Below are positions 3,001 through 20,675 of a stretch of DNA of 20,675 bases, piece after piece. Source of the DNA: a virus. The first letter of the stretch is position 1, and every line of letters begins with the position of its first letter. A program made the translations under genes and the position numbers. Location: IMG/VR virus record IMGVR_UViG_3300021957_000402, positions 1 to 20,675 of that record, one strand, 5' to 3'. The notes beneath the pieces are model-generated. The model did not search any database. It had not been told where the DNA came from and worked only from the letters and a program-made list of their open reading frames with translations.

Positions 3001-3954
3001 CTTCAGAGAAGAATTCAAAAGAGATTTGAAAAAAAGACAAAAAGAGCGCAATTAGCTGGAGCTATAGTAAGTATGATTGGCAGCATTGCTGCAGCAAGCG
3101 CTGAAAGCTCAATAAGTAAAACTACTAACATTGGAGCTCTTGCTAAATCTGCGGGAAGCAGTCTTAAATCTACGACTGAGGCAGGTCAAGCCGCTTTAAA
3201 CGATGCCCGTCAAAGAGGTAATTTCGCTTTGGGTAGCTATATACGAAGAAATTCTAGTTCTCTTACATTAAATGGCCAAACTATAGATAAATTAGGCGCA
3301 GATCAAATGGTTTCTGATTTACGTTCGAATGTTTTTGATTATGATTCAGCTGTGAATGTTGAAAACATGATCTCATCAGATAAATTTCAAAGAAAAATGG
3401 CTGACCCTTTTGGTGGTGGGATGTTTAATAGGGATAGGGTAAAAATATCTTCTGTTTTTAATAATGCAGGATTTACGGCTGAAGCTTCTAATAAACCGGG
3501 GTTATTGATGAATATGTTTTCAGGGGCTAGAGGGTTTTTAAGTAAAGGTAAAAGGCAGGAAGGAGGCTTGATTAATTATAATTCAGGAGGTTTCGTTCCT
3601 CACGGTTCAAGGTTAAGCGATACAATTCCAGCTATGTTGACGGGTGGTGAATATGTAATGAATAATAAAGCTGTTGCAAAATATGGATTAGGGACGATGA
3701 ATGCTATGAATGCTGGGGGTCTTTCTACTTCTAGTACTACTAATAATTCTACTAACAATAATGCTACTAGTATTTCTGTAAGTGTTGATAGGTCTGGTAA
3801 ATCTGAATACGGCGCTCAAACTACTAGTTATAATAAAGATGATATTGTTATATCTAAAGAGATGGCACAGCAGATAAATGCTCTTGTTTTAAAAAGGGTA
3901 GTGGATGAAAAAAGATACGGTGGAGAATTGTATAAAGACCCATTAAGAACATAA
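1..3954 (+). CDS. Tail tape-measure protein, 5' end outside window
   Basis: The frame is open from base 1 without a stop, so the ATG at 121 is an internal methionine and the gene starts upstream; 1317 codons are visible. In siphophages this protein fills the tail tube, sets tail length and is ejected with the DNA. The evidence is its great length, long Lys/Glu/Ala-rich probable coiled coils (clearest around bases 1300-1950), a short hydrophobic Ala/Ile/Gly segment (about 3046-3102), and a C-terminal part with two copies of a 'GD...ALLEDGEYVLN..AV' type motif (about 2672-2790 and 3590-3700), common near tape-measure C termini. It ends in an Asn/Ser/Thr-rich linker and a 'DEKRYGGELY' segment, which recalls the 'RRPGG' ends of many tape-measure proteins. 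The family call is firm; orthology to lambda H specifically is not claimed. The stop abuts the next ATG. Confidence 0.9.
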   Translation, partial: SSLSGDDFEKASEGAARALKDIKDVNLRKTFAEAGTDIEKMTAALKNYEDVRVAGSQRAQQNIFTSTAAELNTTPFTQSFRSVDKQLEERAKKLEEILGLQVEESIDATGRRISVGRGGGGARVNEKILKVSEKSRDIILQEYDRLFKDISGLDTATRGILGSLSEDTLAKRLEEQTGKSFTEVTSIVETINNLRGTIIGDYIFGNVESLLEDSVSKDFSVDIDKILADTRGAATKTFNNIFQKINNDFDDLSNETLRAIQSTSSTQKLKNTILDFTTSFNESISSFVSNNLPDLEKYQYARSVAKQKADNQLAKLAQSSDDFEENQTNERRKALEKNAVDISASFEKNLFQSQAVGELFRDTILPRLKEGDYDINIDQIQKQAQKDLILDFNKEYYSGIPSPFPQTGMFANNRVGENPDIGYTEDDYGGVTRSQGLRQAEVEKLRIQKQLQDLKAIEEGSGAGTDLSQEEAKKQAARLTKKLVDLDRITSVLSLTQKEVTKNEIESLVKNKKAAQALFDQQAKDAKKLFELNKVFTKQRIEAEQALASKRAEIDEKNLARTRAAEIASTRLGFASNIDQARGRGQIALAENALNDPRANFGLGLKEITERRIKAEQEILEKRRSLEDAQLDIEMKQSLLSLNAEIQNTNALHELSRSVLQLVGVNLRNDRDVLSIREGNSGMDDEAIRETYGDEAANKYFTSRSIDSSLSGDEIRSSALEKELAIQKESGQIDEKALRVAAKKDGFSASQLMMLEEEFKNRKGILEIERQIENILRNRKNDASREGVDLAGNFKAGVGAMSSEADTILNNLARNAPSRFADGMANALNEVANGTKDIGDAFSDMAIDFGRMLQQEVFRALAQKAVGNLLSGFTTGQTGGSMSQGAIKAQNGMYISGGRTGDRNLALLEDGEYVLNRNAVRGMGGRKALDKLNFGMAPRFQSGGYNMYADQALKNGEYDFTGDLTFNGSNAGDVNPDLYSAYAFENSPYFQRQKEIANEKLQRRIQKRFEKKTKRAQLAGAIVSMIGSIAAASAESSISKTTNIGALAKSAGSSLKSTTEAGQAALNDARQRGNFALGSYIRRNSSSLTLNGQTIDKLGADQMVSDLRSNVFDYDSAVNVENMISSDKFQRKMADPFGGGMFNRDRVKISSVFNNAGFTAEASNKPGLLMNMFSGARGFLSKGKRQEGGLINYNSGGFVPHGSRLSDTIPAMLTGGEYVMNNKAVAKYGLGTMNAMNAGGLSTSSTTNNSTNNNATSISVSVDRSGKSEYGAQTTSYNKDDIVISKEMAQQINALVLKRVVDEKRYGGELYKDPLRT
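326..372 (+). other. GC-rich patch encoding a Gly/Arg linker in the tape measure
   Basis: In otherwise very AT-rich DNA this short stretch is rich in G and C and includes CGGCGGCGGGGG. It encodes a glycine run (residues 'GRGGGG') between helical segments, which is probably a flexible break in the coiled coil. No independent function is evident. Confidence 0.5.
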
Positions 3955-4870: not shown

Positions 4871-6646
4871 ATGGCAAAATTTACAGATTTAACACCTATA
4901 GCTGGTTCGAGCATGACTACTAGTCATGTTTTTGCTGTTTCCACAAGTGCAGACACATTTCAATTAAGCTTAGACGCTTTAGAACAGTCTTTTACTGGTT
5001 TAACAGCAAAAGGCACTAGCGGTATATCTTTTATAGGTAATACGGTTCCTAGCGGCATTACAGTAGCTGACAATGGCTTTGTGGGAATTAATGACACTAA
5101 TCCAAATTTCGTTTTAGATGTAGGAGATTATGGGGCCGTTACTCATCCAGAATTTAGGATGACAGCTTCATCTTCTTCTAGGTCTGTCAAAACTACGATT
5201 GCCGATTCTGGTGTTTACTGGCAATCAATAAAAAAAGCTTCAGATACAGATTATTACATACAAGTTTCAGAAGATGGTTCTAATTACACTGGAGCATTGA
5301 ATATAGATAAAGACGGTAATATAGGAATTTTTGATGGTGGTGATGATTTAACGAATAAGTTTTACGTTTCAGGTGGAGATGTTAAATTTCAAAGTGGGGT
5401 TTCTGGCATGGTTTTTGATCCGGGTGATGCAGAAATAAAAACTTCAGTAGCTGGTGATATTTTATGTTTAAATAGAAGTAATTCTGATGATATTGTTTTA
5501 GGCAACGGTTCTTTATATGTCTCTAATAATTCTTCTAATTCAAAAGTGGGAGTTAACACGGATTCTCCTAGTTATTCCTTAGAAGTTGAAGGTATAAACA
5601 CTATTTTTAGTATAACAAATCCTTCTACCTCACGCAGTAGAATGAAAATAGCTAATAATTCGTCCACTAGTTATATAAGCGTTGAATCAACAAAATTGCT
5701 TATAGGGCCAAATCCTACTTTAAGTAGTAATAATTTAGTTTACGATTTGTCTTCTAAAAAATTAGGTGTAGGGTCTATTTCTCCAGATAACAAGCTTCAT
5801 GTTTACAGCATTACTGATGATAGAGTTTCAAAATTTGAAGGTAAAAGTTCGAGCTCTTCTGAAGTTTTTCAAGTAAATAATTTTAACAATGATGAAGTTT
5901 CTTATACTGGCCCTCGCCATACAGTATACACATTTGGTAGGTCGGTAGGCACTGGGCCTAGTTTCACGAATAATCAATCTAAATGGGGCATAGGGTTGTT
6001 CGATGATGGGATTGGGGTTGATTATGATGATGTTTTTGTTTTTAGAGTAGATGCGGACACCTCTTCAAATTCGTCTATAAAAGCTGAATTAGACCGTGAC
6101 GGAAATTTTAATATTCAGGGTTCTTATACAACTAGCAATTCTTATTCAAAAGGTAAATTTGTACAAAATTATCATTCACGATGTATTTCTAGCGATATAT
6201 ATATAAACCCTTTTAGTGAAAGCTCTGCTACTACTGCTAATGTGAGTAGCAGTACAGAAAATCCTTTCACTATAGCTCCTTTTGCTGGGGAAATTAAAAA
6301 AATAAAAATTATAACAGCAGATGTTTCTTTAACTCACTTTACTAATGGTGCAAGATTTGAAATTTCAATTGTAAACCCTTCTTCTGGTGGTGAAAATGAA
6401 CAGCTCACTTCTTTTACTTCTGCAGCCTCTTCTGCTCCAACTTCGCTGCCTTCAAATGGTGTTGTTGCTCAGTTTGGATTGCAAGGGGTTAGCTCTGCTG
6501 GAACTGTGTATAGTTTTGAAAGCTTTTCTGGTAGTGCAACTTTTACTGAGGGGCAATTAGTTCAGTATAGAATTTGTCAAGCAAATGGTTCAGCAACGGA
6601 TATCAATAGCACAATAATGTCAACAGTTTCCTTTACCGTAGATTAA
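4871..6646 (+). CDS. Fibre-like virion protein with repeated VGI/VGV-P-LxV motifs
   Basis: This 591-residue protein starts 'MAKFTDLTPIAGSS', an opening typical of phage appendage proteins. It carries three copies of a motif common in phage and bacterial fibres: residues 70-84 (VGINDTNPNFVLDV), 226-240 (VGVNTDSPSYSLEVE) and 298-311 (LGVGSISPDNKLHV). Between them are Ser/Asn/Asp-rich strand-turn stretches that fit a trimeric beta-structured shaft. The C-terminal part, about 440-591, has a different composition (NPF..., FTIAPFAGEIKKI) and looks like a separate compact beta domain, possibly a fibre head. No enzyme motif or chaperone domain is evident. It lies between two paralogous beta-rich proteins, one base after the previous stop in the string TAAAATG. 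It may be a side fibre or a tip decoration; the role is inferred from motifs and context. Confidence 0.72.
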   Translation: MAKFTDLTPIAGSSMTTSHVFAVSTSADTFQLSLDALEQSFTGLTAKGTSGISFIGNTVPSGITVADNGFVGINDTNPNFVLDVGDYGAVTHPEFRMTASSSSRSVKTTIADSGVYWQSIKKASDTDYYIQVSEDGSNYTGALNIDKDGNIGIFDGGDDLTNKFYVSGGDVKFQSGVSGMVFDPGDAEIKTSVAGDILCLNRSNSDDIVLGNGSLYVSNNSSNSKVGVNTDSPSYSLEVEGINTIFSITNPSTSRSRMKIANNSSTSYISVESTKLLIGPNPTLSSNNLVYDLSSKKLGVGSISPDNKLHVYSITDDRVSKFEGKSSSSSEVFQVNNFNNDEVSYTGPRHTVYTFGRSVGTGPSFTNNQSKWGIGLFDDGIGVDYDDVFVFRVDADTSSNSSIKAELDRDGNFNIQGSYTTSNSYSKGKFVQNYHSRCISSDIYINPFSESSATTANVSSSTENPFTIAPFAGEIKKIKIITADVSLTHFTNGARFEISIVNPSSGGENEQLTSFTSAASSAPTSLPSNGVVAQFGLQGVSSAGTVYSFESFSGSATFTEGQLVQYRICQANGSATDINSTIMSTVSFTVD

Positions 6647-7477
6647 ATGTCTAAATTTTTAAACTATAGAGGCGTAGATTTTCAATTGGAAAATGAAGAT
6701 TTCTATGCTACAAATGTAAGTCTTAGTGCTCAAGCTTCAGTTGATCCTGTTATCTTGAGTGATGGATCTTTATTGAGTTACGCTCCTTCCTCTGCTGTTG
6801 TAGGAAGTTTGAGTTGTGATTTTTATTTAACAACTGCTTTGCCTTCTTATTTAAATATAACAGGTACTCATGACACCCCTATTAAAGCTAAATTTGCTAA
6901 TGTAGAGATAGCTGAAGTTTATCCTAAAAATATTTCTTTTAGTGTAGAGCCTTTTCAACCTGTATTGATTTCAGCAGAGTTTGATTGGTATGGTGATGTT
7001 AAAGTTGAAAATTTTGAAGAACAAGATATAAATCAAGTAAAGCAAAAGCAAGTGCCTAATTATATAGCTCATTCTTATAAAAGTCATTTAAGTTCACGAA
7101 ATATATTTAATTCAGATTCCAGTGGGTCAACTGGGCCTAGTGGTCCTCAAGGTAGTATTGTTTCTTTTTCATATCGTTCAAGTTGTGATAGACCTACATT
7201 TTTTAATGTAGATGAAGTTGTTCCTTTTAGAGTAGGTAAACTAAATAAACAGTGTGAAGTAGATTTAAGTGCAAACAATTTAGGAAAATTAATATCTGTC
7301 AATGGTAAGAATGCTTCTAGTGTTATATATTTAAAAGATTTTTACGGAACGTCTTTATCTTCTTTTTCAATAGACGGAGTATTATCTAATCAAAATTACA
7401 ATATTTCTGAGGGTCAGTATTTGCTGACAGAGGCTTCAATTAGACAAACAATTACAGAAACAAAAACGTTGATCTAA
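6647..7477 (+). CDS. Beta-rich tail protein B, two-domain, paralogue of the 304-residue protein
   Basis: This 276-residue protein follows the same two-part plan as the protein at 3955-4869. The first domain (about 8-118) runs from 'FQLENEDFYATNVSLSAQ' to 'EFDWYGDV', which matches 'SFDVYGDI' of the paralogue; the second (about 169-270) starts with 'IVSFSYRSSCDRP'. The domains are joined by a charged, Gln/Lys-rich linker (121-150) and a short collagen-like tract 'GSTGPSGPQG' (160-169). The shared phrase 'V(V/D)PxxV' near 'NVDEVVPFRV' and 'EVHNVVPIEV' supports common descent of the second domains. No signal peptide or membrane segment is seen. Its position between a fibre-like gene and the M-type gene makes a tail structural role likely. 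The exact function is unknown. The ATG abuts the previous TAA and no Shine-Dalgarno is visible. Confidence 0.7.
   Translation: MSKFLNYRGVDFQLENEDFYATNVSLSAQASVDPVILSDGSLLSYAPSSAVVGSLSCDFYLTTALPSYLNITGTHDTPIKAKFANVEIAEVYPKNISFSVEPFQPVLISAEFDWYGDVKVENFEEQDINQVKQKQVPNYIAHSYKSHLSSRNIFNSDSSGSTGPSGPQGSIVSFSYRSSCDRPTFFNVDEVVPFRVGKLNKQCEVDLSANNLGKLISVNGKNASSVIYLKDFYGTSLSSFSIDGVLSNQNYNISEGQYLLTEASIRQTITETKTLI
7121..7156 (+). other. Collagen-like Gly-X-Y tract in tail protein B
   Basis: These bases encode a short run with glycine every third residue (GSTGPSGPQGS). A very similar tract (GPTGPSGPS) opens the fibre gene at 18596. It is a probable flexible or short triple-helical linker between the two beta domains. 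Confidence 0.6.
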
Positions 7478-9385: not shown

Positions 9386-12247
9386 ATGACTACTGAATAT
9401 AATAATGGAGTTTACTTAGGTCGCATCCCAACAGGTTTTGCGGGTTATACCGGGGTTTCTATATTTAATAGATCTGATAAATCTGTGACTTATGTTGCTG
9501 AAATGTCTGAAACAGATTTGAAAAAAGGAAGCAATAATGATCCTTTACCAGAAGCAGACGCTGCAAATGGAAATCTTTATAATACTCTTTTTGTTTCTAG
9601 CGACTTAAATGATGTTAATACTGAGTTGAATGAAACGGTTCTAACTTTAGGTGCTGGTGAATCTGGTAATATTTATATAGGTCACAAACCTTTTAATACT
9701 TTTTCGAGTGCTGCTGTGGAGAGTACTGGTATAGAAACTTCTACTTTAAATATTCTTTCAGAATCTTCAGCAGGAGATCTTGATGCATCGATTAACATAG
9801 AAATAACTGGCCAGAGAATTACAAGCCCTCTTATACCAGATAAACCCGGAAGATTTTTTGCTATAGAATCTTATGACGAAACCGATAAATATGCATTAAA
9901 TTTTAATTGGAAACTTCTAAGTGGGCAAGCTTTCGTTACTGGTTTTAAACTAGACTTATGTAGCGATTCTAGTTTTAATACTCCCGTTAAAGATTCGCCT
10001 TATCAAATTCCTATCGTGAAAAATTCAGAATTTTCTGAGCCAGATTATTTGAGTTATTATAACTATGATACTATAGATTTTTCATATAAAATAGATAAAT
10101 TACCAACTATTGGTTCTTTATATTCTAGAATTGTTGCTGTAAATGGTTTGGATGGAAACAGTGATCATACTTTTTGTACAGGTTTTAAATCAGACAGTGT
10201 AATAGCTATAGATGATGTAACTTACAGTGGTTTTCATCCTTCTCCGGGGGATGATTTAGGTTTTAGTCCAGAGTCTTTATTAATAGATCATCTTGTTGAC
10301 GGCAATGAAGTGGATTTAATGGAACTTTTATATGAAAAAAATGGTGAGTCTTATGATTTTACATATTACACGGGTGCTGTTATAAATTTTCATCGTTCTC
10401 AAGGAAACGAAGAAATCATTTCCAAGAACAAAGATGTAGCTGCTTTGAGGCTTAAAAAGCCAGACAGGCCTTTATCTTATAGTGTTGATAGCAATAATAA
10501 GTTTAATTTAGTTTTAAATTTTAAGAAAATTTTTGTTGCTGGTTATAATGGTAGAGGGGCTGATGGAAATGTTGCTGGTGAAAATGGTAGTGCAATTTTT
10601 GATTTTGACAATTTAAATGATGGTAATAAGGTTTTTGATTATTATATAAACAAAGATAAAGATAGTGTTTTTTATGCAGGTTTGGGGGGAGAGCAATCTT
10701 TCAAAATTGACACCAACCCAGCTACAAATGTAACAGAAGGACGCCGTTTAGGCCATAACAATTTATCTGATCTTGATTCAGTTGATAGAAAAGAACTAGT
10801 TAATCCAGAAAAAGAAATTCAAGCTGCAGGATTAGATGGTAAGTTGATTAAAGAATCTACTTCGTCGTTTCCTAATTTGTATTTAGGATTTTCACAAAAA
10901 GACGCGAGCAGTTCTATTCCTAATTCTAAGCTTTTGTTTAGATTCCAAACAGAAAACATGGAAGGTACTGCTGGTGATGCAGTGACTAGTTGGTATTCTC
11001 CTAATAATAACTTAATTTTTAAAAACACTGATGGCGACAATACTTCATTAACTGTAAGAGAAGCTTACGGTAGAAAGTTTTATGAACTAACTGGTGGCAA
11101 CAATCAAGGTAAAGCTATTACAGCTACTAAAAATGATTCAGAAGGAACTGGGCCTTCCTTTGCAGGCGGTAACAACCGAAAAGATCTTAGGCCAAATTAC
11201 ACAATACTAGTTTTTGCTTTAGCTAGAAAAAATTTAATAAATAATAACTATGATGAAACAATAACTGATATGCTTTCTAAATGCGGGGCGATTCATAAGT
11301 TTGTTGGTAAAACTAGATGGGGGTGGCAAGGTGATGATAGTAGCTCTGCACGAGATATTTCTGAAATATTTTGGGGTACGCCAACTCCTCCTTTTGATCC
11401 TGATAAACCAGTATACAATTTTTATAGAAAAGATAATGTTACTAGAAGCTCTTTTGCAGGATCTTGTCTAAATGCTGTTTATTTTGTGAAGCAAGGTGCT
11501 TTTTTGCAAAGAGGGGTTGACGGGAATGATAATATAAGAGTATCTGAAAGACAGTATTATTACTTATCTAACCAGCAGCAAACTGACGACCCAGACAAAT
11601 GGAAAACTACTCGGGTTAAGACTGGTAGAGAAGTGGCTGACTATCAAGATTATAAAAATTTGAATTTAGCTAAAACGTCAGATTTTCCACCAGCTAATAA
11701 TTCTAAGTTTATTTTGAATAATAGTACTGAAGAACTTGAAGAACTTGAAGCTTTTGAGTTGTTTTTCGTTAAAATGCATTATACTTTGAGTAGTTCTCGT
11801 TCTGATGTAGATCTTGTAAATCATAGATCTTCTGATTTTGTAGCTGCTACAAATGAAACTTTTATAAACGGTAAAAAAGTTTTTAATCAAACGATTCAAC
11901 ATCATCTAGGGCTTGGTGACGCTACCAATTTTGCTCAAGAGATGTTGATACAGCTTAATAATAATGATAGCGATCCTGATGCTAATACGCGAACTAGGCT
12001 GTATCTTTTTGATTATCTTTATGGGGCAGCTGAAACCATTGATGAGAGGGATAGTGACTCTGAATCTATTATGCAATATTTATCAAGTTATTATGCTCCA
12101 TTAATTGTTAAATCTTCGAGCGCAAAATTAATAGCAAGGAATAGTGGTAGTAGTGGTAGTGGTGGTAGTAGTGGTGAAGCTGGCAACGATCAGCTCGCTT
12201 TTGATTTACCTTTAAGCCATAATTATTTAAATTTATATTCAAGTTAA
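9386..12247 (+). CDS. Large multidomain tail-tip adhesin-like protein
   Basis: This 953-residue protein is not a member of the basic lambda M-L-K-I-J set but sits between M and L. Residues 1-140 are beta-rich and possibly Ig-like. Residues about 150-270 look like a fibronectin type III-like domain, from 'PDKPGRFFAIESYDETDKYALNF' (read as separate strands) to 'YSRIVAVNGLDGNSDH'. Residues 384-402 are glycine-rich (AGYNGRGADG and following). Residues about 513-907 look like a lectin-like domain expanded by insertions: the opening 'KLLFRFQTENM...DAVTSWYS' and the closing 'RLYLFDYLYG...SIMQYLSSYYAP' resemble the LamG-type start and end. A Gly/Ser linker with 'GSSGEAGND' (927-935) and a short C-terminal strand segment follow. 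No signal peptide or transmembrane segment is seen. It is likely a virion protein displaying adhesive domains near the tip. Assignment is by layout and motifs only. It starts two bases after the M-type stop and ends one base before L. Confidence 0.7.
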   Translation: MTTEYNNGVYLGRIPTGFAGYTGVSIFNRSDKSVTYVAEMSETDLKKGSNNDPLPEADAANGNLYNTLFVSSDLNDVNTELNETVLTLGAGESGNIYIGHKPFNTFSSAAVESTGIETSTLNILSESSAGDLDASINIEITGQRITSPLIPDKPGRFFAIESYDETDKYALNFNWKLLSGQAFVTGFKLDLCSDSSFNTPVKDSPYQIPIVKNSEFSEPDYLSYYNYDTIDFSYKIDKLPTIGSLYSRIVAVNGLDGNSDHTFCTGFKSDSVIAIDDVTYSGFHPSPGDDLGFSPESLLIDHLVDGNEVDLMELLYEKNGESYDFTYYTGAVINFHRSQGNEEIISKNKDVAALRLKKPDRPLSYSVDSNNKFNLVLNFKKIFVAGYNGRGADGNVAGENGSAIFDFDNLNDGNKVFDYYINKDKDSVFYAGLGGEQSFKIDTNPATNVTEGRRLGHNNLSDLDSVDRKELVNPEKEIQAAGLDGKLIKESTSSFPNLYLGFSQKDASSSIPNSKLLFRFQTENMEGTAGDAVTSWYSPNNNLIFKNTDGDNTSLTVREAYGRKFYELTGGNNQGKAITATKNDSEGTGPSFAGGNNRKDLRPNYTILVFALARKNLINNNYDETITDMLSKCGAIHKFVGKTRWGWQGDDSSSARDISEIFWGTPTPPFDPDKPVYNFYRKDNVTRSSFAGSCLNAVYFVKQGAFLQRGVDGNDNIRVSERQYYYLSNQQQTDDPDKWKTTRVKTGREVADYQDYKNLNLAKTSDFPPANNSKFILNNSTEELEELEAFELFFVKMHYTLSSSRSDVDLVNHRSSDFVAATNETFINGKKVFNQTIQHHLGLGDATNFAQEMLIQLNNNDSDPDANTRTRLYLFDYLYGAAETIDERDSDSESIMQYLSSYYAPLIVKSSSAKLIARNSGSSGSGGSSGEAGNDQLAFDLPLSHNYLNLYSS
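10922..12106 (+). other. Expanded lectin-like module in the 953-residue protein
   Basis: Residues about 513-907 open with 'LLFRFQTENMEG...VTSWYSPNNNL' and close with 'TRLYLFDYLYGAAETIDE' and 'QYLSSYYAPLI', matching the beginning and end of LamG/concanavalin-like domains. The span is much longer than a usual 200-residue domain, so it probably carries loop insertions (around 630-780). Confidence 0.5.
12143..12176 (+). repeat. Imperfect GGTAGT microsatellite encoding a Gly/Ser linker
   Basis: A run of AGT and GGT codons encodes SGSSGSGGSSG near the C terminus of the 953-residue protein. It is directly followed by codons for EAGND. Such simple repeats encode flexible linkers and can change length by slippage. 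Confidence 0.7.
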
Positions 12248-12248
12248 A

Positions 12249-14279
12249 ATGTCAAATTTATTTTTATTAACAAACAGTGAAGTTATCGACTTATTTGAAA
12301 TAAAGTTGAATGATTTTGAGGGCTATCTTTATTTTCATGGGTCAAAAAACTTTGAGAAAGATTTAGTTTTTCAAGGTAGAACGTATTTATATATACCTTG
12401 TGAAATGTCAAACCTTCAATATGGTTCAGATGGTAAACAAAATAGACCAGTTATTAAGATATCTAACGTTAATAATTTTATAAGTAATTTAATAAAAGAT
12501 AGAGGCAATTTATTAGGTAAAGAATTTAATAGAAAAAAAATGTTAGCTAAGGATTTAGATGCTATTAATTTTGGTGGAGCGTTTAAAAATCCTTTAGGTG
12601 TTTCTGGTTTTAAAGATTTCATCTCAAATGATAAATTTATAGTAAATAAAAAAAATTCAGAAAACAAAGAAAGAGTAGAGTTTGAATTATCTAATATATT
12701 AGATATAGATGGGTTGACTTGTCCTTCTAGAAAAGTGTTTAATAATTCTTGCCAGTGGCAATATAGAGGGCATGGGTGTAATTATGGTAAAATTGCAAAC
12801 TATTCTGGTCCTAATGTTAAAATAACTGAATCTGCAAAATCGAGTTTAGAAGGAGTTTTGAAACATTATGATGAAGCAGGTGATAGCATTAGAAGTTATT
12901 TAGGTGTTTGGTTAGATTATTCAGGTGTGACCGTTTCGGAAAACACAACAAAATACTTTCGACAAGTTCCAACAGATTATACTTATTGGAATCTTATCTA
13001 TCCAGAAATATATTTTAAGACGGCGCTTAATAATTCTTGGGTAAATAAAGCGGGCATTTTAAATACTTCTCCTGCTGAAGGTGTGCAAGGTCAACTTAAT
13101 GAGAATATGGCTTGGAGTGGTGATGAAGGCCCAATTGTCTTTCCAAATTCAGGAAGATTGGGAGACAATTATGGCATACTCCCGAAGGGATCAGGAGATA
13201 CTTTTAACCAGCAGTATCCTTCCTATATTGATTTAAAATTAAATTATGATTATAACAATAAAGATTTGACTATTTTTTATATATTTGAACCAGTTAGCAC
13301 TTTTATGCCCCAGCGCGGTGAGTTGAAGGCAGCGTTAACCACAGAAGATTTAAAAACACGTATCGGCCTTACTGATGGGATAACTAAGAGAACAGTTTTC
13401 ACAGGAGCACGTTTAGATTCTTTTCGGATTAAAGATACCAATAATCAAAGCCTTGGCCCTTACTTTTTTAGACCTGTGTCTACAAGAAAAGGCGGTGCTA
13501 GATTTCGACCTTATAATGATGTTATAGATTTTCCTAGACTTTATTCTTGTTCTATTCCGGCAGTTGATACTGGCGAAGATTTAATTAAATTTTATAAAAA
13601 CGGTACATTTTTGTCATCAGTAGAACCAAATTACGGTGGGTCTGACTCAAGTCACGGAATAGAAAATTTAGGATTTTATACAAAATCTGATATAGTTATC
13701 TACGAAATTATAATATTTCAAAAACAATTAACTGCCAATCAAATAGGAAGCATTAATACTTATTTAGGCGCAAAGTATGGAATTTCTACTCCTTCTTCAG
13801 ATATTTCTCAAGACTTATATAAAGCCAGTTCTTCTTTTTTCGCTCAAAGCGATGGTAATTTAGGTGTTCCTATGGCTGATGAAAATGATAAAACGTTTTT
13901 AAAACTTTTTGATGATAAATTTAAATATAATAGTTCTTATGGTTTCAAAGATTTGGTTTATAAAGGAGATTATAATAGTAAAACGGTTTATAAGAGAGGA
14001 GATTTTGTTAAAATTGATATTAATATAGATTTTGATTTCACTAAAGATTCATCAACTCAAAATTCAGAATTACCACATAGATTTTTTATATGTGTATCAG
14101 AGCAAGGGTCTAAAGGAATAAATCCTTTAGATAATAGTATTATATGGAAAGAAGATAAATGTTCTAAAAGTTTATCTGGTTGTTCTTTAAGGTTTGGGTC
14201 TGATGACGCAATTAGCAAAGCCATTCCTTTTGGGGGTTTTCCGGGCACAGTAGATTACGATTATGAATTACCTAGCTAA
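12249..14279 (+). CDS. L: L-type iron-sulfur tail-tip protein, Fe-S cluster domain split by large insertion
   Basis: This 676-residue protein belongs to the lambda gpL family (Phage_tail_L), whose C-terminal domain holds an iron-sulfur cluster; lambda gpL itself is about 232 residues. The N-terminal part (about 1-155) is beta-rich, as in L. The cluster half-sites are plain: 'CPSRKVFNNSC..YRGHGC' with C158, C168 and C177, then 'DKCSKSLSGCSLRFG' with C638 and C645, followed by the family ending 'PFGGFPG' (660-666). The cysteine spacings of 9 (168-177) and 7 (638-645) fit the family. About 460 residues separate the two halves, against a few tens in lambda. The insert holds a lectin-like module (about 196-512) and a CBM5/12-like module (about 563-635). 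L binds the tube side of the tip in lambda. The 3' end overlaps the K start by 17 bases. Confidence 0.88.
   Translation: MSNLFLLTNSEVIDLFEIKLNDFEGYLYFHGSKNFEKDLVFQGRTYLYIPCEMSNLQYGSDGKQNRPVIKISNVNNFISNLIKDRGNLLGKEFNRKKMLAKDLDAINFGGAFKNPLGVSGFKDFISNDKFIVNKKNSENKERVEFELSNILDIDGLTCPSRKVFNNSCQWQYRGHGCNYGKIANYSGPNVKITESAKSSLEGVLKHYDEAGDSIRSYLGVWLDYSGVTVSENTTKYFRQVPTDYTYWNLIYPEIYFKTALNNSWVNKAGILNTSPAEGVQGQLNENMAWSGDEGPIVFPNSGRLGDNYGILPKGSGDTFNQQYPSYIDLKLNYDYNNKDLTIFYIFEPVSTFMPQRGELKAALTTEDLKTRIGLTDGITKRTVFTGARLDSFRIKDTNNQSLGPYFFRPVSTRKGGARFRPYNDVIDFPRLYSCSIPAVDTGEDLIKFYKNGTFLSSVEPNYGGSDSSHGIENLGFYTKSDIVIYEIIIFQKQLTANQIGSINTYLGAKYGISTPSSDISQDLYKASSSFFAQSDGNLGVPMADENDKTFLKLFDDKFKYNSSYGFKDLVYKGDYNSKTVYKRGDFVKIDINIDFDFTKDSSTQNSELPHRFFICVSEQGSKGINPLDNSIIWKEDKCSKSLSGCSLRFGSDDAISKAIPFGGFPGTVDYDYELPS
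12750..12779 (+). other. First Fe-S half-site of L (C168, C177)
   Basis: The codons for C168 and C177 bracket 'QWQYRGHG', matching the conserved Cys-Arg/Gln-Trp-x-Tyr-Arg-Gly-x-Gly-Cys segment of the L family. A further cysteine, C158, lies ten residues upstream. Metal ligation is inferred from family knowledge. Confidence 0.75.
12834..13784 (+). other. Lectin-like module inserted in L
   Basis: Residues about 196-512 include 'YLGVWLDYSGV' and 'YTYWNLI' at the start and 'DIVIYEIIIFQKQLTANQIGS' then 'TYLGAKYGI' at the end. This closing strand-plus-helix pattern is characteristic of LamG/concanavalin-like domains. It is the clearest of the three such modules in the window. Confidence 0.68.
13935..14153 (+). 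other. CBM5/12-like module next to the second Fe-S half-site of L
   Basis: Residues about 563-635 contain 'VYKGDYNSKTVYKRGDFV', 'RFFICVSEQGSKG' and 'NSIIWKED', which follow the 'W/Y..ttaYkkGDvV.y.g..Y.c..n....P....W' layout of small chitin-binding-type domains. The module leads straight into the 'DKCSK' cysteine. Substrate is unknown. Confidence 0.55.
14160..14183 (+). other. Second Fe-S half-site of L (C638, C645)
   Basis: The codons for C638 and C645 enclose 'SKSLSG' and are followed by 'SLRFG', the usual second cysteine pair of gpL proteins. It lies downstream of the inserted modules. Confidence 0.75.
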
Positions 14280-14592
14280 ATTAAAGAGTAATAAATTTTT
14301 GTTTAATGGTTTAAAAAACAAATCTATAGAATCTAAGGAGGAAATTTGTGGTTTTGTGCTTGATGGGAAGTTTGTTCAAAAAAAAAATATGCATCCAGAT
14401 CCTGTCAATCATTTTTTAATCTCTCCAAAAGAATGTATTTGGGGAGAAGATGTGATTGTTTTTCATAGTCATCCTAGTCATGTTGAAGAAAAAGGTTTTT
14501 CAGAATGGGATTTAGAAAATCAAAAATTTTTTTATATGGATATGCTTTTATATAGTGTAAATGAAGATGAATTTTACTTTAAGGAAAAATAA
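14263..14592 (+). CDS. K: K-type tail protein, JAMM/MPN peptidase domain only
   Basis: This 109-residue protein matches the N-terminal JAMM (JAB1/MPN) zinc metallopeptidase domain of lambda gpK. The probable catalytic Glu is E27 in 'KEEICGFV', and the metal site is 'HSHP' (H68, H70) with S80 and D83 in 'SEWD'. There are nine residues between H70 and S80, against seven in the usual JAMM signature, so the loop is longer. Lambda gpK (about 199 residues) also has an NlpC/P60 cell-wall hydrolase domain; here that half is absent and the gene ends at 14592. The start at 14263 overlaps L by 17 bases and gives the complete domain. The stop shares one base with the I start (TAATG). In lambda, K is needed for tip assembly but is not found in mature tails. 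Confidence 0.85.
   Translation: MNYLAKLKSNKFLFNGLKNKSIESKEEICGFVLDGKFVQKKNMHPDPVNHFLISPKECIWGEDVIVFHSHPSHVEEKGFSEWDLENQKFFYMDMLLYSVNEDEFYFKEK
14581..14585 (+). promoter_or_regulatory. Shine-Dalgarno-like AAGGA before the I-type gene
   Basis: AAGGA lies six bases before the ATG at 14592, inside the end of K. It is the only good ribosome-binding sequence seen before any start in the window. Confidence 0.55.
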
Positions 14593-15167
14593 TGGTTAAT
14601 GTTACTTTAAAAGGCATTTTAGGAAAAAAACTTGGCACCGATTGGAGTTTGAGCGTTTCTTCTGTTTTTGAAATATTTGAAGCTGTAGAAGCTAATTCTT
14701 CTGCAGTGTCTAAAAATTTTTCTGATCTACAGAAATTTGTGACTCATTTTATGGTTTTTGTTGATGGAAAAGCTGTTCCTTATTATTTAATGAACAGTAA
14801 AATTCTAAAACAAAATAGTAAGGTAGAAATAGTCCCTCTTGTTCAGGGTTCTGCTGCTATTATACCGTTTATTATATCTATGGTTTTTTCAGTAATCGCC
14901 ACGATTATAACAAAACAAATGAGCCCTAAATCACCAAAAGACGTTAAAACTAATTCAACGATTTTAGGGTCCATGCGAAACGTTACATCCAGAAATGTTG
15001 TAGTACCTATTGGCTATGGTAGGTTAAGGTTAGGCAGTGTATTAGTTTCTAACTATATTACCTCAGTGCCTAGTGTACTAGAGCAGATTCTTAATGGTGG
15101 CAGTGGCAGTCCTACTATGAACCTTTTTAATAAGTCGTATAGATTTAGTAGAGAAAATAATTATTAG
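14592..15167 (+). CDS. I: I-type tail assembly protein
   Basis: This 191-residue protein has the lambda gpI layout. Residues 1-85 form a probable ubiquitin-like beta-grasp domain, from 'VNVTLKGILGKKLGTDWSL' to 'NSKVEIVPLVQGSA', the latter being the typical 'IxIVPVVxGA' ending. Residues about 87-107 form a strongly hydrophobic helix (IIPFIISMVFSVIATI). The C-terminal part holds the family signature 'ILGSMRNVTSRNVVVPIGYG' followed by 'RLRLGSVLVS', matching the 'N.....NPVPLLYGRLRVGS' pattern. Lambda gpI is about 223 residues. K and I with JAMM and ubiquitin-like folds are always adjacent in lambda-type tails. I is required for tip assembly with J. The start overlaps the K stop by one base and is preceded by AAGGA, which supports it. 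Confidence 0.9.
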   Translation: MVNVTLKGILGKKLGTDWSLSVSSVFEIFEAVEANSSAVSKNFSDLQKFVTHFMVFVDGKAVPYYLMNSKILKQNSKVEIVPLVQGSAAIIPFIISMVFSVIATIITKQMSPKSPKDVKTNSTILGSMRNVTSRNVVVPIGYGRLRLGSVLVSNYITSVPSVLEQILNGGSGSPTMNLFNKSYRFSRENNY

Positions 15168-15176
15168 AATTTAATT

Positions 15177-18100
15177 ATGAGCGTAAAAGAAATTTCTATT
15201 AGCTTAATGCATAATGAATCAAATGATTCAAAGTTGGAAAGTAATGAATTTTTATCTTGCCAAGATTTAATTTGTGAGGGTCCTATAGCTGGTCTTGTTG
15301 ACAGCCAAGGTAATATTCTAAAATATTTATCTGATGTTGAAGACTCAAGTATTGTTTTAGGAAAAGGAGTTTATTTAAATGATGTTCCTCTTATAGATTC
15401 TAAATTAAATAAGTTTAATTTTGTTTCTCAAGGTTTTTATCTTTCAAACGGAACAGATCAGAAATATATAGGAAGTCGTTTACTTGATTGGCCTTCCACA
15501 GTCTTTAATTATAGACAGCCATTGCTATTAAACGAAAAAAACTTTGCTGGTGATGTTTTGAATCTGAAATGGGTGCCTCATTCTCCCCCAATAGACTCTC
15601 TAGTTTTCCCTTTTTCTTATAGCCGTTCTTCAGGTCAAATCGTGAAAAAGAAAAGGTATGCATCACTTCTAGATCAGGGACTTTTTAACTATTTCGGAGG
15701 TCTAGCTATAAACGATGGTGATCCATGGGGGGCGGCGATAGAAGCCGTAGAAGAGGCTAAAAACTTTTGTAACCCTTTTGTTCATGAGATAAAAAATAAA
15801 TTTACTGATGTGCTGACAGTTAATCTTTCGGTTGATCAGTTATATAATATTAGTAAAGATGGCAGCAACTTAGCTTCTGAAGTTACTTTTGTGGTAGAAT
15901 TTTTTGAAGATGGTTCAAGTGATTCAACTTACGTTTTTATACCTGTGAAGGGCATATCTAAAAACCCTTATGTTTTTCCTATTAATTTGTATTTAGATAT
16001 AAATACTTTTTTAGATAAAAAATATTATGTAAGAATTTATTCATTGACTCAAAAAATATCTGTTAATAATGCTAAAACAGTTACTAATATCAGTGTAGCG
16101 TCTATAGTTGAAAACGTAACTAAGATGGGCAGTTTTACTTACCCATATTCGGTTGTTGTCAATTCTCAGATTTCTTCAGCTCATTTTAAAGAGCAGCCTA
16201 CTAGGACTTTTGATTTAAAATTATTAAAGATTAAAGTTCCTGATAATTATGATCCTGAATCCAACTCTTACTCTGGTAATTGGAGCGGGGTTTATAATAA
16301 ATTTTTAAGATGGACTGATAATCCGGCTTGGATCTTTTACGATATTTGCACTAATGGCAGATACGGAGTAGGGAATGGTAAGGTTTTACTAGAAGATTTA
16401 AATAAATGGGAATTATATAAAATAGCTAAATATTGTGATGAATTAGTAGTTTCTACATCTCCAAGAGGCGCAAGTGAAGATTCTTTCACTTACAATCCTT
16501 CTGATACAACATGTATTTATTTAAGCAGAATATCTGAAGACGGGTCTGAAAACACTTTGGAGAGTTTAGTAAAAAAGTATCATCCGATTTTTACAACAAA
16601 AAAACAGTCTGACAATGACCTATTAGGGGCTGATGAGCCTCATAATTCAGTTATTTTTCTTTTTGATATTGATGATCAGGTTTCAAGTAATTGTAGGAAA
16701 TTTGTTTTCTCTATTTTAGAAGGAAGCTTTAATGTTGATGGTAATTTTGAAGAAGTGTCTGATGGTGAGCAAGGTTCAGTTTTTAAATTTCATTTAATTC
16801 CTTATTTCGGACCCACATCAGCTTTTGAAAAAGAGCCAACAGGTGAAATGTTGGAAGGTTTTAGAGAAGCAATAGAATCCCCTAACCTTAAGAAAGCTGT
16901 TCAAGAAAAAAATTTACAGGGTGTATTGGATAATTCAAAGATAAATACAGAAAACGGGGCCATGGATTATATTTTGACATTTATTAAAGAAAATTGGCAT
17001 AAGCGGTCTATAGACGATAAAAAGCATTTAGCGAATGAATATATCTACGCTCCGATTTTTTCTAACGAACAATCTTCTTTAAATTTAAGAGGAAAATGTT
17101 TACCTAGAACGCCCCGTTATAGAGACCCTTTAGAGCCTAGATTTACAGCGAATGTTTTTATTAATAACGAAACAGAATGCTTAAAGCTGTTAAATGATTT
17201 AGCTTCAATTTTTAGAGGTTTAACTTATTATAGGAATAATTTAATTACAGCTACAATAGACGTTGCAAAACCTGTTTCTTATATTTTTAATAACACTAGT
17301 GTAAAAGATGGGGTTTTTAATTATTCTACAGGTAGCTTGGATGGCAATTATAGTGTCGCGAAAGTTTTATATAAAGATAGGTATGGTAATTTCACAGATG
17401 AAGTTGAAATTGTGGAAGACAGTGAGTTAATTAGGGAATATGGCATCGTTTCAAAAGAAATACTTGGTTTTGGTGTAACTTCTAAAGATCAAGCTAGAAG
17501 GATGGGTTTATGGCTTTTAGCTACAAATAGATTCGAAAATGAAACTGTTTCCTTTTCGACTGATATGCAGGGAATACTTTTGAAGCCGGGAGACGTTATT
17601 CAAATAGAAGATTCTTTTAAAAGTGATTTCGCTTTGAATGGTAGAGTCTTGGATGTAAATAGATCAGAAAAATACATTGTTGTTGATAGGAAAATTAGTG
17701 TTGAGTTTGCGGGGAGTGAAATAAAGTTTTTGTATGATAGATCTTATAAATCTTTTGATGATATTTCTAGTTCAGATCAATTTATTGATCAAGAAAAGGA
17801 TGATGTTGTTTCACTTTTTATAGATCATATCGATAACAGCACTAATAGAGTTTACTTTTCTCAACCTTTGAATGAAGACGGAAGTTTAAATGAGGAGGGT
17901 TTTTCTAGCTTTTATAAAATTTCCGTATCTTCTCCGTTTATTATTAATATTGATTCGAGTGCTGAAGACAATGTTGAAAATAAAAATTTATACAAAATAG
18001 TAAGCATAAGTGAGCAAGATGTAAATGAATATTCTATTTTTGCCATGAAACATGATAAGAATAAATATTCTAGCTTAGATGATAATGTTATAAGTGAAGA

Positions 18101-18587
18101 AAAAAACATTTCCAAAAAAACCATTTCTTATTCTTCTTCAGAAAATATAGTTGAACTTGATTTGTCTGGGATGGAAGATTCTTATTATAGTTTAAAGAGG
18201 CTTCAATTGCCTACCATTAATCAAATGAATTTCGATTACTCTTTTTGCGAGTATGAATCCTCGTTATCTGATAAGAACAATACTTATTATGCTTCTTTAA
18301 CCTTATCTTTCGATTTAATTAAAAATTTTATTGAACTGCAGTCTGATCTTGGGAATAGTTACTATTCAGAAATCAATAAAATATTATCTGTTGGAGGAGG
18401 TTTTATTTGTAAGATTATTTCTGATAATCAATCAATTAAATTTAAAGTTCCTTTTTCTGAAACAGGAAAGAAAAATATCTTTTTGGGGGAAGCACCTAAG
18501 CGCGTAACTAAGTCTCAAGTCTTTGCTTTCCTATCTTTTGTAAAAATATATATATACGACATAGAAAATAAAATAATTGAAGTGTAA
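15177..18587 (+). CDS. J: J-type central tail-tip (host specificity) protein with extra internal domain
   Basis: This 1136-residue protein aligns by eye with lambda gpJ (1132 residues). Landmarks in order: 'FLSCQDLICEGPIAGLVD' (25-42); 'LLKIKVPDNYDPESNSYSGN' (349-368); 'NPAWIFYDICTNGRYGVG' (382-399); 'KWELYKIAKYCDE' (410-422); 'EPRFTANVFIN' (653-663); 'EIVEDSELIREYGIVSKE' (744-761), 'QARRMGLWLLATN' (772-784) and 'LKPGDVIQI' (802-810); 'LYKIVSISEQ' (938-947). Lambda has only about nine residues between YCDQ and EPRITCN; here the corresponding segment, about 425-651, is some 225 residues of unrecognised sequence. The C-terminal 160 residues do not resemble lambda's fibronectin-type and receptor-binding parts. 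J forms the trimeric hub that contacts the host. It starts nine bases after the I stop, without a Shine-Dalgarno. Confidence 0.92.
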   Translation: MSVKEISISLMHNESNDSKLESNEFLSCQDLICEGPIAGLVDSQGNILKYLSDVEDSSIVLGKGVYLNDVPLIDSKLNKFNFVSQGFYLSNGTDQKYIGSRLLDWPSTVFNYRQPLLLNEKNFAGDVLNLKWVPHSPPIDSLVFPFSYSRSSGQIVKKKRYASLLDQGLFNYFGGLAINDGDPWGAAIEAVEEAKNFCNPFVHEIKNKFTDVLTVNLSVDQLYNISKDGSNLASEVTFVVEFFEDGSSDSTYVFIPVKGISKNPYVFPINLYLDINTFLDKKYYVRIYSLTQKISVNNAKTVTNISVASIVENVTKMGSFTYPYSVVVNSQISSAHFKEQPTRTFDLKLLKIKVPDNYDPESNSYSGNWSGVYNKFLRWTDNPAWIFYDICTNGRYGVGNGKVLLEDLNKWELYKIAKYCDELVVSTSPRGASEDSFTYNPSDTTCIYLSRISEDGSENTLESLVKKYHPIFTTKKQSDNDLLGADEPHNSVIFLFDIDDQVSSNCRKFVFSILEGSFNVDGNFEEVSDGEQGSVFKFHLIPYFGPTSAFEKEPTGEMLEGFREAIESPNLKKAVQEKNLQGVLDNSKINTENGAMDYILTFIKENWHKRSIDDKKHLANEYIYAPIFSNEQSSLNLRGKCLPRTPRYRDPLEPRFTANVFINNETECLKLLNDLASIFRGLTYYRNNLITATIDVAKPVSYIFNNTSVKDGVFNYSTGSLDGNYSVAKVLYKDRYGNFTDEVEIVEDSELIREYGIVSKEILGFGVTSKDQARRMGLWLLATNRFENETVSFSTDMQGILLKPGDVIQIEDSFKSDFALNGRVLDVNRSEKYIVVDRKISVEFAGSEIKFLYDRSYKSFDDISSSDQFIDQEKDDVVSLFIDHIDNSTNRVYFSQPLNEDGSLNEEGFSSFYKISVSSPFIINIDSSAEDNVENKNLYKIVSISEQDVNEYSIFAMKHDKNKYSSLDDNVISEEKNISKKTISYSSSENIVELDLSGMEDSYYSLKRLQLPTINQMNFDYSFCEYESSLSDKNNTYYASLTLSFDLIKNFIELQSDLGNSYYSEINKILSVGGGFICKIISDNQSIKFKVPFSETGKKNIFLGEAPKRVTKSQVFAFLSFVKIYIYDIENKIIEV
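16449..17129 (+). other. Extra block of about 225 residues inside J
   Basis: This codes for residues about 425-651, between two segments adjacent in lambda J. It includes hydrophobic strands ('NSVIFLFDIDD', 'VFKFHLIPYFGP') and a helix-rich charged part ('LKKAVQEKNLQGVLD'). I do not recognise a family. Confidence 0.7.
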
Positions 18588-18595
18588 TATAAAGT

Positions 18596-20675
18596 ATGCC
18601 AGTTATTACAGGTCCAACAGGCCCTTCGGGTCCTAGCAGTTTTTTTGAGATAAATAGTTTAACTATAGATAATCTTGATTTTTATAGTGAAGTTGATTAT
18701 ATAGTAAGCCCGTCTGTTCATGGGTTAAGTTCTAACTCTAAGTTGATTTCAGCTTCTCTTCTTCAAGATAATGTTTCTTTTCAGCTGGATATATTTGACC
18801 CTTCTACTAGTAAGGTAATAACTGATTCTTTTGTAAAGTCTATTTACTTTTCTGGCATAAAAGTAGATTTATATGATTCGAATAGAAATTTTATAAGTAA
18901 TATAGTTGATTACACTAAAGACACTAATATAAGTTTTACTAGCTCTTCTTTAAAAGATTCTATAGAAATTTATACAGGTTTTGATAGTATAAATAATTTT
19001 AGAACGTTTTTTTTAGATTTTACTACTTGTAGTATTTATGGTGATAAAGATACGTATAGCAGTTTATTAACATATCCACAAGTAGAAATAACAGGGTTAG
19101 AGGTATTAAATACAAATCCAATACAAATAGCCCCACTTCTTAACGATTATTCGTACGCCAAAAGCATTTCAACTTATTTAGTTGCAGATCCTAATGAATT
19201 ACCTTCTGGAGATGCAAATCTTTATAATCCTGTTAGTGGGTATTCAAATCAGGATTTAGTTTATCAAAATAACAGGTCGAAAACTTTTTTTGAATTTAGT
19301 CCTCCTGCATCTGGGGCCGCTTATGTAGATTACACTAATCCTTTTAATTTTATATTTTTGCCGTATGATTATTTTAATACTGGTAGTTATTTTTCAAGCT
19401 CTGGGATTAAAACTTCTTTTTATGAAACAGAAGTAATATCTTCTTCAATAGACAATATAACAGGTTTCGTTTCTGCTTCTCAGAATAAATACGATAAGAA
19501 TTTAGATCTTAAAGCTTTTGTTAAATGGGACGCTATTCAGCAGCAGGAAAACTTATCATTTGAAGCTCATGTTAGCGAAAAAGGTAGTAATCATATAAGT
19601 TATGTCTTTAATAGCCCTAATACTCAAGTAGAAGCTATTGAATATATAGCCTATGGCACAGGCAATAAAATAATTAATAATTCAGATAGATCTAATTATT
19701 ATTCTGGAGTAGATTCTATTTTTAAAACTTATGGTCAGCAAGGTATTGAGTGGTCTGATCATACTTTATTTGTAGATAATTATAATTCTTTACCTGTCGG
19801 TTTCTATCCTACTGGGTCAAAATTAAGTAGCGTATCAGAAATTCGTATACCTGCTGGAGTATCAGATAGTCCAGAGTTATATTTCGTTTATGATTATGAA
19901 CCTTCTACGAATTCTTTTTCTATCTTGCCAAGTGGGGGTCAATATGCTGGGGATGTTTACACAGGTACTTATACTGGAGCAAAATATACTGGAGTTTATT
20001 CTAATTCAGAAGACTATGGGCCTTCGGGTTACGATGGTATATCAGGTAAATCTCCTATTTATGTAGATTTTGAAAGCGGCACGTTATTAGCTAAAAGAAT
20101 AACAGGGTTTACAGGTGAAATTGATTTTATATTATCTGAATTTGAGCCTAAGATTGAATTTAATGTAAAACCCAATAAAGATTACGAGATAAAAGTAAGA
20201 GCTTCTTATGAAGATGGAACTTCTTCTGATTTTTCAGAAACCTTGTTATTTACTTCAGGTCAAATATTAAATAATGTAGAAAGTATATTTTCTGGTAGCT
20301 ATGTTTTAGCTGGTTCTGGTGTTAGTGGTTTTGTTCCTTACTTTAGTGGCGACGATTTACTTGAAAACTCTGTTATTTATCAAAATGCGTCTGGGAATTT
20401 AGGACTGAATAAAATAGAACCATCTGGCCAGTTGCACATAGGTGGGGATTTATATATTGATAACGTTATAGAAGATGAAAATACTAATAAATTTTTAGTT
20501 TGGGATTCTTCTACTCGTTTAGTTAGTTATTCAACAAGTGGTGGAGGTGGAGGTGGTGGTTCAGGTTCTTCTGGAACTTCTGGAACTAGCGGCTCTTCTG
20601 GAACTAGCGGCTCTTCTGGAACTAGCGGCTCTTCTGGAACTAGCGGCTCTTCTGGAACTAGCGGCTCTTCTGGAA
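18596..20675 (+). CDS. Tail fibre-like protein, 3' end outside window
   Basis: The frame runs from ATG 18596 to the right edge without a stop (693 codons visible). It starts eight bases after J. The N terminus is a collagen-like tract (ITGPTGPSGPSS). A long beta-rich, Ser/Tyr/Asp-rich region follows, with 'YTGTYTGAKYTG' repeats near residue 460 and a fibronectin type III-like segment around 515-555 ('KDYEIKVRASYEDGTSSDFS'). Next comes the fibre motif 'LGLNKIEPSGQLHIGG' (602-617), also seen three times in the 591-residue protein. Then 'NKFLVWDSSTRLVSY' leads to a polyglycine stretch and Gly-Ser-Ser-Gly-Thr-Ser repeats. The likely role is a distal fibre attached at the J hub, possibly supplying the receptor-binding part that J seems to lack. 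The receptor domain would lie beyond the window. No good Shine-Dalgarno precedes it. Confidence 0.8.
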   Translation, partial: MPVITGPTGPSGPSSFFEINSLTIDNLDFYSEVDYIVSPSVHGLSSNSKLISASLLQDNVSFQLDIFDPSTSKVITDSFVKSIYFSGIKVDLYDSNRNFISNIVDYTKDTNISFTSSSLKDSIEIYTGFDSINNFRTFFLDFTTCSIYGDKDTYSSLLTYPQVEITGLEVLNTNPIQIAPLLNDYSYAKSISTYLVADPNELPSGDANLYNPVSGYSNQDLVYQNNRSKTFFEFSPPASGAAYVDYTNPFNFIFLPYDYFNTGSYFSSSGIKTSFYETEVISSSIDNITGFVSASQNKYDKNLDLKAFVKWDAIQQQENLSFEAHVSEKGSNHISYVFNSPNTQVEAIEYIAYGTGNKIINNSDRSNYYSGVDSIFKTYGQQGIEWSDHTLFVDNYNSLPVGFYPTGSKLSSVSEIRIPAGVSDSPELYFVYDYEPSTNSFSILPSGGQYAGDVYTGTYTGAKYTGVYSNSEDYGPSGYDGISGKSPIYVDFESGTLLAKRITGFTGEIDFILSEFEPKIEFNVKPNKDYEIKVRASYEDGTSSDFSETLLFTSGQILNNVESIFSGSYVLAGSGVSGFVPYFSGDDLLENSVIYQNASGNLGLNKIEPSGQLHIGGDLYIDNVIEDENTNKFLVWDSSTRLVSYSTSGGGGGGGSGSSGTSGTSGSSGTSGSSGTSGSSGTSGSSGTSGSSG
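20582..20675 (+). repeat. 18-base tandem repeat encoding (Gly-Thr-Ser-Gly-Ser-Ser)n
   Basis: Five identical copies of GGAACTAGCGGCTCTTCT run from 20582 to 20671 and the next copy begins at 20672, so the array continues past the edge. A degenerate lead-in (SGSSGTS) and a polyglycine run at about 20540-20560 precede it. Glycine occupies every third residue, as in collagen, but there is no proline. Confidence 0.95.

Follow-up and report, generated by a model that had tools for sequence, protein, structure and literature searches.

A Perfect Coding Repeat in a Putative Collagen-Like Tail Fibre Stalk of an Uncultured Phage Family

Introduction

The last gene of the uncultured virus record analysed here runs into a short tandem repeat whose copies agree down to the third codon position, and there the record stops. 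What does such an array encode, why are its copies identical at the DNA level, and does the number of copies visible at the edge reflect the real gene? The first-pass annotation, made from the DNA letters alone, had proposed five identical 18-base copies from 20582 onward, a stalk with Gly at every third residue, recent expansion or homogenisation, a variable copy number and a likely assembly break. Here, we analysed the whole stretch of 20,675 bases (hereafter the window), which is the entire virus record, so that its right edge is the end of a contig. It was compared with its relatives in viral_contigs, whose loci are designated by L numbers.

A Perfect Array in a Predicted Tail Fibre Gene

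TRF detected one array with a period of 18 and 100% matches (table 1). The perfect run is exactly 99 bp and is interrupted by base 20576; it thus starts five bases earlier than first noted, and the five full units from 20582 are indeed all one identical 18-mer. The array is in frame with the open ORF, whose translation ends in ...SGTSGSSGTSGSSG, and Gly occupies each third residue over 15 triplets up to the window edge (up to 130 triplets in relatives). Period-18 runs elsewhere in the window reach at most 32 bp. A small Gly/Ser-coding 9-bp repeat is present at 12142-12175, near the C-terminus of a 953-aa protein (9386-12247). When the exact 51-base pattern of the array was searched for in viral_contigs, no other contig matched and the missing downstream half was not located. 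RNA families and tRNAs were looked for across the window and none was found. A literature search for the repeat peptide returned no relevant match, which does not prove its absence from print.

Table 1. Predicted features of the window discussed in the text
Feature	Position	Strand	Remarks
Tape-measure-like gene	1-3954		phrog_3547 among matches
gpL-like minor tail protein, long C-terminal extension	12249..14279	+	PF05100
Tail protein	14263..14592	+	phrog_30
Tail assembly protein	14592..15167	+	phrog_32
gpJ-like central tail fibre / host-specificity protein	15177..18587	+	phrog_31, PF13550
Tail fibre gene, open at window edge, 693 codons visible	18596..20675	+	
Pre-array segment, 94-98% DNA-identical in L008 (rest of fibre gene 45-76%)	20165..20539	+	Exchanged module ending at array
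Array lead-in: glycine run and non-identical SSG/TSG triplets	20540..20576	+	
Perfect 18-bp tandem array, 5.5 copies, unit coding (SSG TSG) in fibre frame	20577..20675	+	Runs off the record's end

The fibre gene begins eight bases after the gpJ-like gene. Judging from sequence matches, the genes upstream of it are a siphophage tail-tip cluster of the lambda gpL-K-I-J type, in which we take the phrog_32 product to be gpI and the phrog_30 product to be gpK. The array-bearing gene is a predicted tail fibre gene: it lies at this tail-tip cluster, and the downstream modules of two of its relatives (L006 and L013) match phrog_9942 and phrog_18345 (tail fiber protein). Its 648-aa N-terminal part matched no family in Pfam, and the structural model of this part was poor (mean pLDDT 56.4). 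The PDB matches listed for the N-terminal part were mostly strings of beta-sandwich domains, including the lambda central tail fibre (8xci); a structural identity based on them was rejected because the TM-scores (<0.3) were too low for use.

Some neighbouring genes have features of their own. The gpJ-like gene is mosaic, with a DNA identity to L009 that varies from 42% to 92% by 200-bp block, unlike the adjoining N-terminal part of the fibre, which is 98.4% identical to the same contig (L009 and L006 lie on one contig). A 276-aa protein (6647-7477) contains a short GSTGPSGPQGS stretch, and its apparent counterpart in L012 and L013, recognised by eye, has a GxS insert (FGTSGNNGSSGSSGGAG), which was also seen in L017. 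A 591-aa protein encoded among the tail genes (4871-6646), for which no PHROG or Pfam match was found, has stretches like VGVNTDSPSYSLEV that by eye resemble the beta modules of the fibre.

Relatives and Sequence Past the Array

The N-terminal 648 residues of the fibre recur at 41 loci in viral_contigs (38-98% identity in the best segment), and 15 aligned relatives are 42-97% identical to this part. Two relatives that were read past this part stop in the array: L007 (97%) runs into a 27-bp unit and L008 (53%) into a 54-bp unit. The contig of L006 (98%) spans an array of 477 bp, continues into beta modules that match phrog_9942 (tail fiber) and stops within a second array. These three were found by the fibre alone; L013 (70%), found among the gpJ relatives, is complete and encodes 2163 residues, including arrays of 327 and 159 residues and a C-terminal domain of 132 residues. 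Because this complete relative is so long and has two arrays, the fibre gene of the window is probably far from complete at the end of the record. By analogy with L006 and L013, its missing half would bring further GxS triplets, then an exit of the LLSL..TDNGVITLNG type and beta modules. With the collagen rise of 0.29 nm per residue given in PMC3368898, the arrays of L013 would measure approximately 95 and 46 nm and the 45 residues visible in the window 13 nm.

In a set of 50,697 phage records, no match was found for the window (megablast), for the N-terminal part of the fibre (tblastn, E 1e-3) or for the C-terminal domain of L013, and the middle modules of L013 matched 11 records, with about one tenth of their length covered. 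Among these records, we found no cultured member of this phage family. The fibre is also present on one 7.4-kb contig of an uncultured Bacteroidetes bin (L048). Four of 395 Bacteroidetes genomes matched, this bin at full length and the other three over 47-57 residues only; the binned contig is weak evidence of a Bacteroidetes host.

Turnover of Copies and Units

One pair, L013 and L014, differs in copy number: 0 mismatches separate the two in the 8433 bp upstream and the 2030 bp downstream of the array. Despite these identical flanks, their arrays are 981 and 1071 bp long, respectively: L013 has one additional exact 36-bp unit, and L014 has one additional 126-bp unit that differs by one base from its neighbour, although every relative is an assembled contig, probably built from short reads, in which a collapsed repeat could imitate a change in copy number.

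Units also differ among close siblings. The window, L006 and L007 share 97.7-98.4% DNA identity over 1938 bp before the array, and their units are 18 bp in the window and 27 bp in L007, with a best shift of 135 bp in L006. L019 and L020, which are 99.7% alike before the array, encode an identical hexapeptide in all but the first unit; 9 of 14 18-bp units are distinct in L019 versus 3 of 9 in L020. Differing units are also carried by L059 and L060 (97.4%), and L081 and L086 (100% over 2547 bp) diverge inside the array region.

We then asked how far the encoded peptide accounts for the repetition of the DNA. With the amino acids fixed and the codon usage of the window, five copies would match at all six codons with a probability of 7e-11. 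Synonymous-codon shuffles within the window array (n = 200) gave an identical stretch of at most 30 bp, compared with 78 bp observed. For a broader comparison, 37 arrays of at least 14 triplets were taken from 31 loci (L012, L039 and L085 were left out as repeats, and L058 was not included). DNA repetition exceeded all 200 shuffles in 31 of them, the other six being those of L022, L023, L032 and L035, the first array of L059 and the second of L084. The codon identity of the copies is not explained by the protein sequence. Taken together, the comparisons indicate that the arrays change length and content quickly among relatives. The proposal of recent expansion or homogenisation is supported by the shuffles, the sibling units and the codons of L019 and L020, and that of a variable copy number, for relatives, by the assembled L013 and L014.

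Exchange of Modules at the Array

When L008 was compared with the window in 100-bp blocks, identity was 45-76% until about 20165-20195 and 94-98% from there to the array. L038 and L013 show a similar jump: their identity is 34-68% at first and 97-98% over the 250 bp that precede the array (92% when the final 319 bp are taken). Immediately downstream of the array, a segment of 118 bp is 92% identical between L107 and L006, although the N-terminal part of L107 is 31% identical to that of the window over 384 residues. Stretches of 420-499 bp in L095, L096/L097 and L098 match the beta-module DNA of L006 at 88-89% identity; L095 and L096/L097 start with a different N-terminus, whereas the start of L098 is open. 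The jumps in identity before the array and the shared DNA after it show that both sides belong to exchanged modules. We infer that the repeat itself drives this exchange.

Contig Ends and Assembly

Among 49 tallied contigs, in which several viruses are repeated (L012/L013/L014, L031/L039, L084/L085, L025/L045, L081/L082/L086 and L019/L020) so that the independent number is smaller, 32 end inside an array, 14 before any array and 3 beyond one (L013, L014 and L059), in agreement with the suggestion that the array is a likely assembly break. The 49 comprise 31 of 39 gpJ relatives, the window, L007, L008, L048 and 14 further contigs from the 41 fibre loci, whose remaining loci lie on contigs already counted; the gpJ relatives left out were L037 and L040-L044, which stop inside gpJ, and L046 and L047, whose gpJ match is partial. 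An array was defined as at least five Gly-x-x triplets consisting mainly of S, T, A, D, N, G, V and I, and a contig was considered to end in it if it stops within 12 bases of it. Two tallied contigs, L017 and L033, end inside gpJ (their matches reach residues 923 and 999 of 1136); without them, 32 of 47 end in an array and 12 before. Two others counted as ending before an array deserve mention: L061 actually ends in a GPQ/GPA array that the rule missed, and L082 ends 92 bases past a short stretch of four triplets. As computed with L017 and L033 included, arrays contain 1.758 contig ends per kb, compared with 0.147 upstream of them and 0.272 in the sequence between or beyond arrays.

In a de Bruijn simulation, the left contig keeps exactly k array bases whenever the array is clearly longer than k (99 bases for k = 99). 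Thus, the 99 bp of the window may report the assembler, in which case the true perfect run would be approximately 117 bp or more, and the copy number at the edge may mark where a k-mer assembler stopped instead of the true number. The terminal run of the window fits k = 99 and also smaller k plus whole loops. Terminal perfect runs elsewhere are 93, 115, 128 and 137 bp, with 123 bp observed twice (L008 and L027), and a 127-base suffix recurs in three contigs (L031, L039 and L086, the first two being one virus). Lengths of 99, 123 and 127 fit k values of common assemblers, whereas 93, 115, 128 and 137 do not. We therefore discarded the idea of reading a single k from these runs, which give no one answer. 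Moreover, the rule used finds no perfect run at the end of 18 of the 32 contigs that stop in an array, so those ends need another cause.

Collagen-Like Character

Collagen-type sequences have proline-rich X and Y positions, and the array of the window is without proline. In 6069 array residues of the relatives, Ser accounts for 42.6%, Gly for 34.7%, Thr for 16.0% and Pro for 0.7%, the last value being biased because the array rule misses arrays rich in proline, that of L061 among them. With so little proline, unlike in classic collagen, a triple helix is not secure. On the other hand, L013, L006 and L020 score 201.6, 73.6 and 30.6 bits against PF01391 (cut-off 27.2); L061 (25.9) and L007 (19.4) fall below it, and the 15 triplets of the window gave no match even with E raised to 10. 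L061, of the same fibre family, carries in this slot a classic collagen-like GPQ GPQ GPA array (10270-10427) that reaches the contig end. The Gly at every third residue, the PF01391 scores of the longer relatives and the GPQ/GPA repeats of L061 place the array with collagen-like phage fibres. Together with the position after gpJ, they also favour the stalk proposed at first, although the window itself lacks a PF01391 match.

Discussion

Our preferred reading, to which we assign a probability of about 75%, is that the array is a coding minisatellite of a collagen-like tail fibre stalk in an uncultured phage with a lambda-type tail tip, and that it is variable in length and serves as an exchange joint. 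The N-terminal domains of the fibre would attach near gpJ, (SSG-TSG)n would form a trimeric rod of the collagen or polyproline-II type, and beta modules and a C-terminal domain would come after the rod, as in the complete L013. Because the units are multiples of 9 bp, slippage or unequal recombination would gain or lose whole Gly-x-x triplets, which keeps frame and register while the length of the rod changes. The repeats and the short segments shared on both sides would act as joints for the exchange of fibre modules, possibly with the array as its cause, and the copies visible at the edge probably mark the point at which a k-mer assembler gave up and not their true number.

How far could the identity of the copies arise in another way? 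That protein-level selection and codon preference alone keep the copies alike, in the absence of recent expansion, is extremely improbable: the unit does include TCT and ACT, the commonest Ser and Thr codons of the window, but its AGC, GGC and GGA are minority codons there (10, 15 and 21%), and both the probability calculated above and the shuffles, none of which equalled the observed stretch, speak against it, as do siblings L019 and L020, which encode the same residues with different codons. The same pair, with many silent differences in L019 where L020 has few, would suit the idea that perfect identity is mainly a product of assembly, in which a long and imperfect array was reduced to its identical copies by an assembler that followed the commonest k-mers. 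Such an origin would also agree with a record that stops within the array and with the exact k bases kept in simulation. However, if k was 99, the whole 99-bp run existed in the reads, and the assemblies of L013 and L014 pass through arrays with identical as well as non-identical units; long identical stretches, of 117 bp for L009 (on the contig of L006) and 123 bp for L013, also lie inside arrays that were crossed. We regard this origin as quite unlikely.

A different question is whether the segment folds at all. In a flexible, unstructured Gly/Ser/Thr linker, expansion would be tolerated since nothing folds there, and the absence of proline from the window array, the 58.6% Ser+Thr in arrays of the relatives and the lack of a PF01391 match for the window are all compatible with this possibility. 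An unstructured linker would nevertheless have no need of Gly at every third position for up to 130 triplets, longer relatives score as PF01391, and L061 has GPQ/GPA in this slot; a linker is therefore unlikely, and the collagen-like stalk remains our preferred reading.

A wider interpretation, which we put forward tentatively and consider possible but not probable, is that the array is a rod and a recombination joint at once: homogenised Gly-x-x repeats, with the short shared segments that flank them, would let phages resize the fibre and swap whole distal tips among fibres that have otherwise diverged, forming a fast-evolving host-range device in a family without a cultured member among the records searched, and a proline-free Ser/Thr repeat would take the role of collagen. 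With such arrays, the receptor-binding part of the fibre escapes metagenomics, as most tallied contigs end there and the tip and its host signal are lost. The relatives also form a natural panel, alike in the fibre base and different in the stalk, that is suited to studying stalk length against adsorption. In addition, a proline-free repeat in a collagen slot raises the question of which sequences form the helices of phage stalks.

Comparison with Known Systems

The polyglycine-rich domain of Salmonella phage S16 is reportedly a folded tip domain, unlike the long linear array between modules observed here. What the two have in common is glycine-rich segments within the fibre protein, the polyglycine-rich domain being that of the S16 tail-fibre adhesin (PMC13243795). 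The E. coli O157:H7 prophage proteins EPclA/B, as described in PMC3368898, are more similar in having a Gly-every-third stalk between tail-fibre domains and one or two Col domains per fibre, whose lengths typically differ by multiples of three residues. EPclA is trimeric and its collagen triple helix was demonstrated (PMC3368898), whereas the stalk here is predicted from sequence; it also differs from EPclA/B in its proline-free Ser/Thr repeat and in flanks without a Pfam family.

Collagen-like repeats likewise separate domains of the antireceptors of Streptococcus thermophilus phages (PMC5601072), where, according to work cited in PMC7242381, they were suggested as a recombination hotspot. 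Those phages have another host; in the present family arrays reach 130 triplets and most are repeated at the DNA level (compare PMC5601072). In the Guarani virophage, ORF8 contains 27-nt collagen-like repeats, and an in-frame loss of 81 nt was described in a mutant selected on a new host (PMC7242381). ORF8 is a virophage protein and not a tail fibre, and the host association was seen there, whereas our comparison is of sequences. Length change in collagen-like domains is thus already known, and here it is seen in an uncultured phage family.
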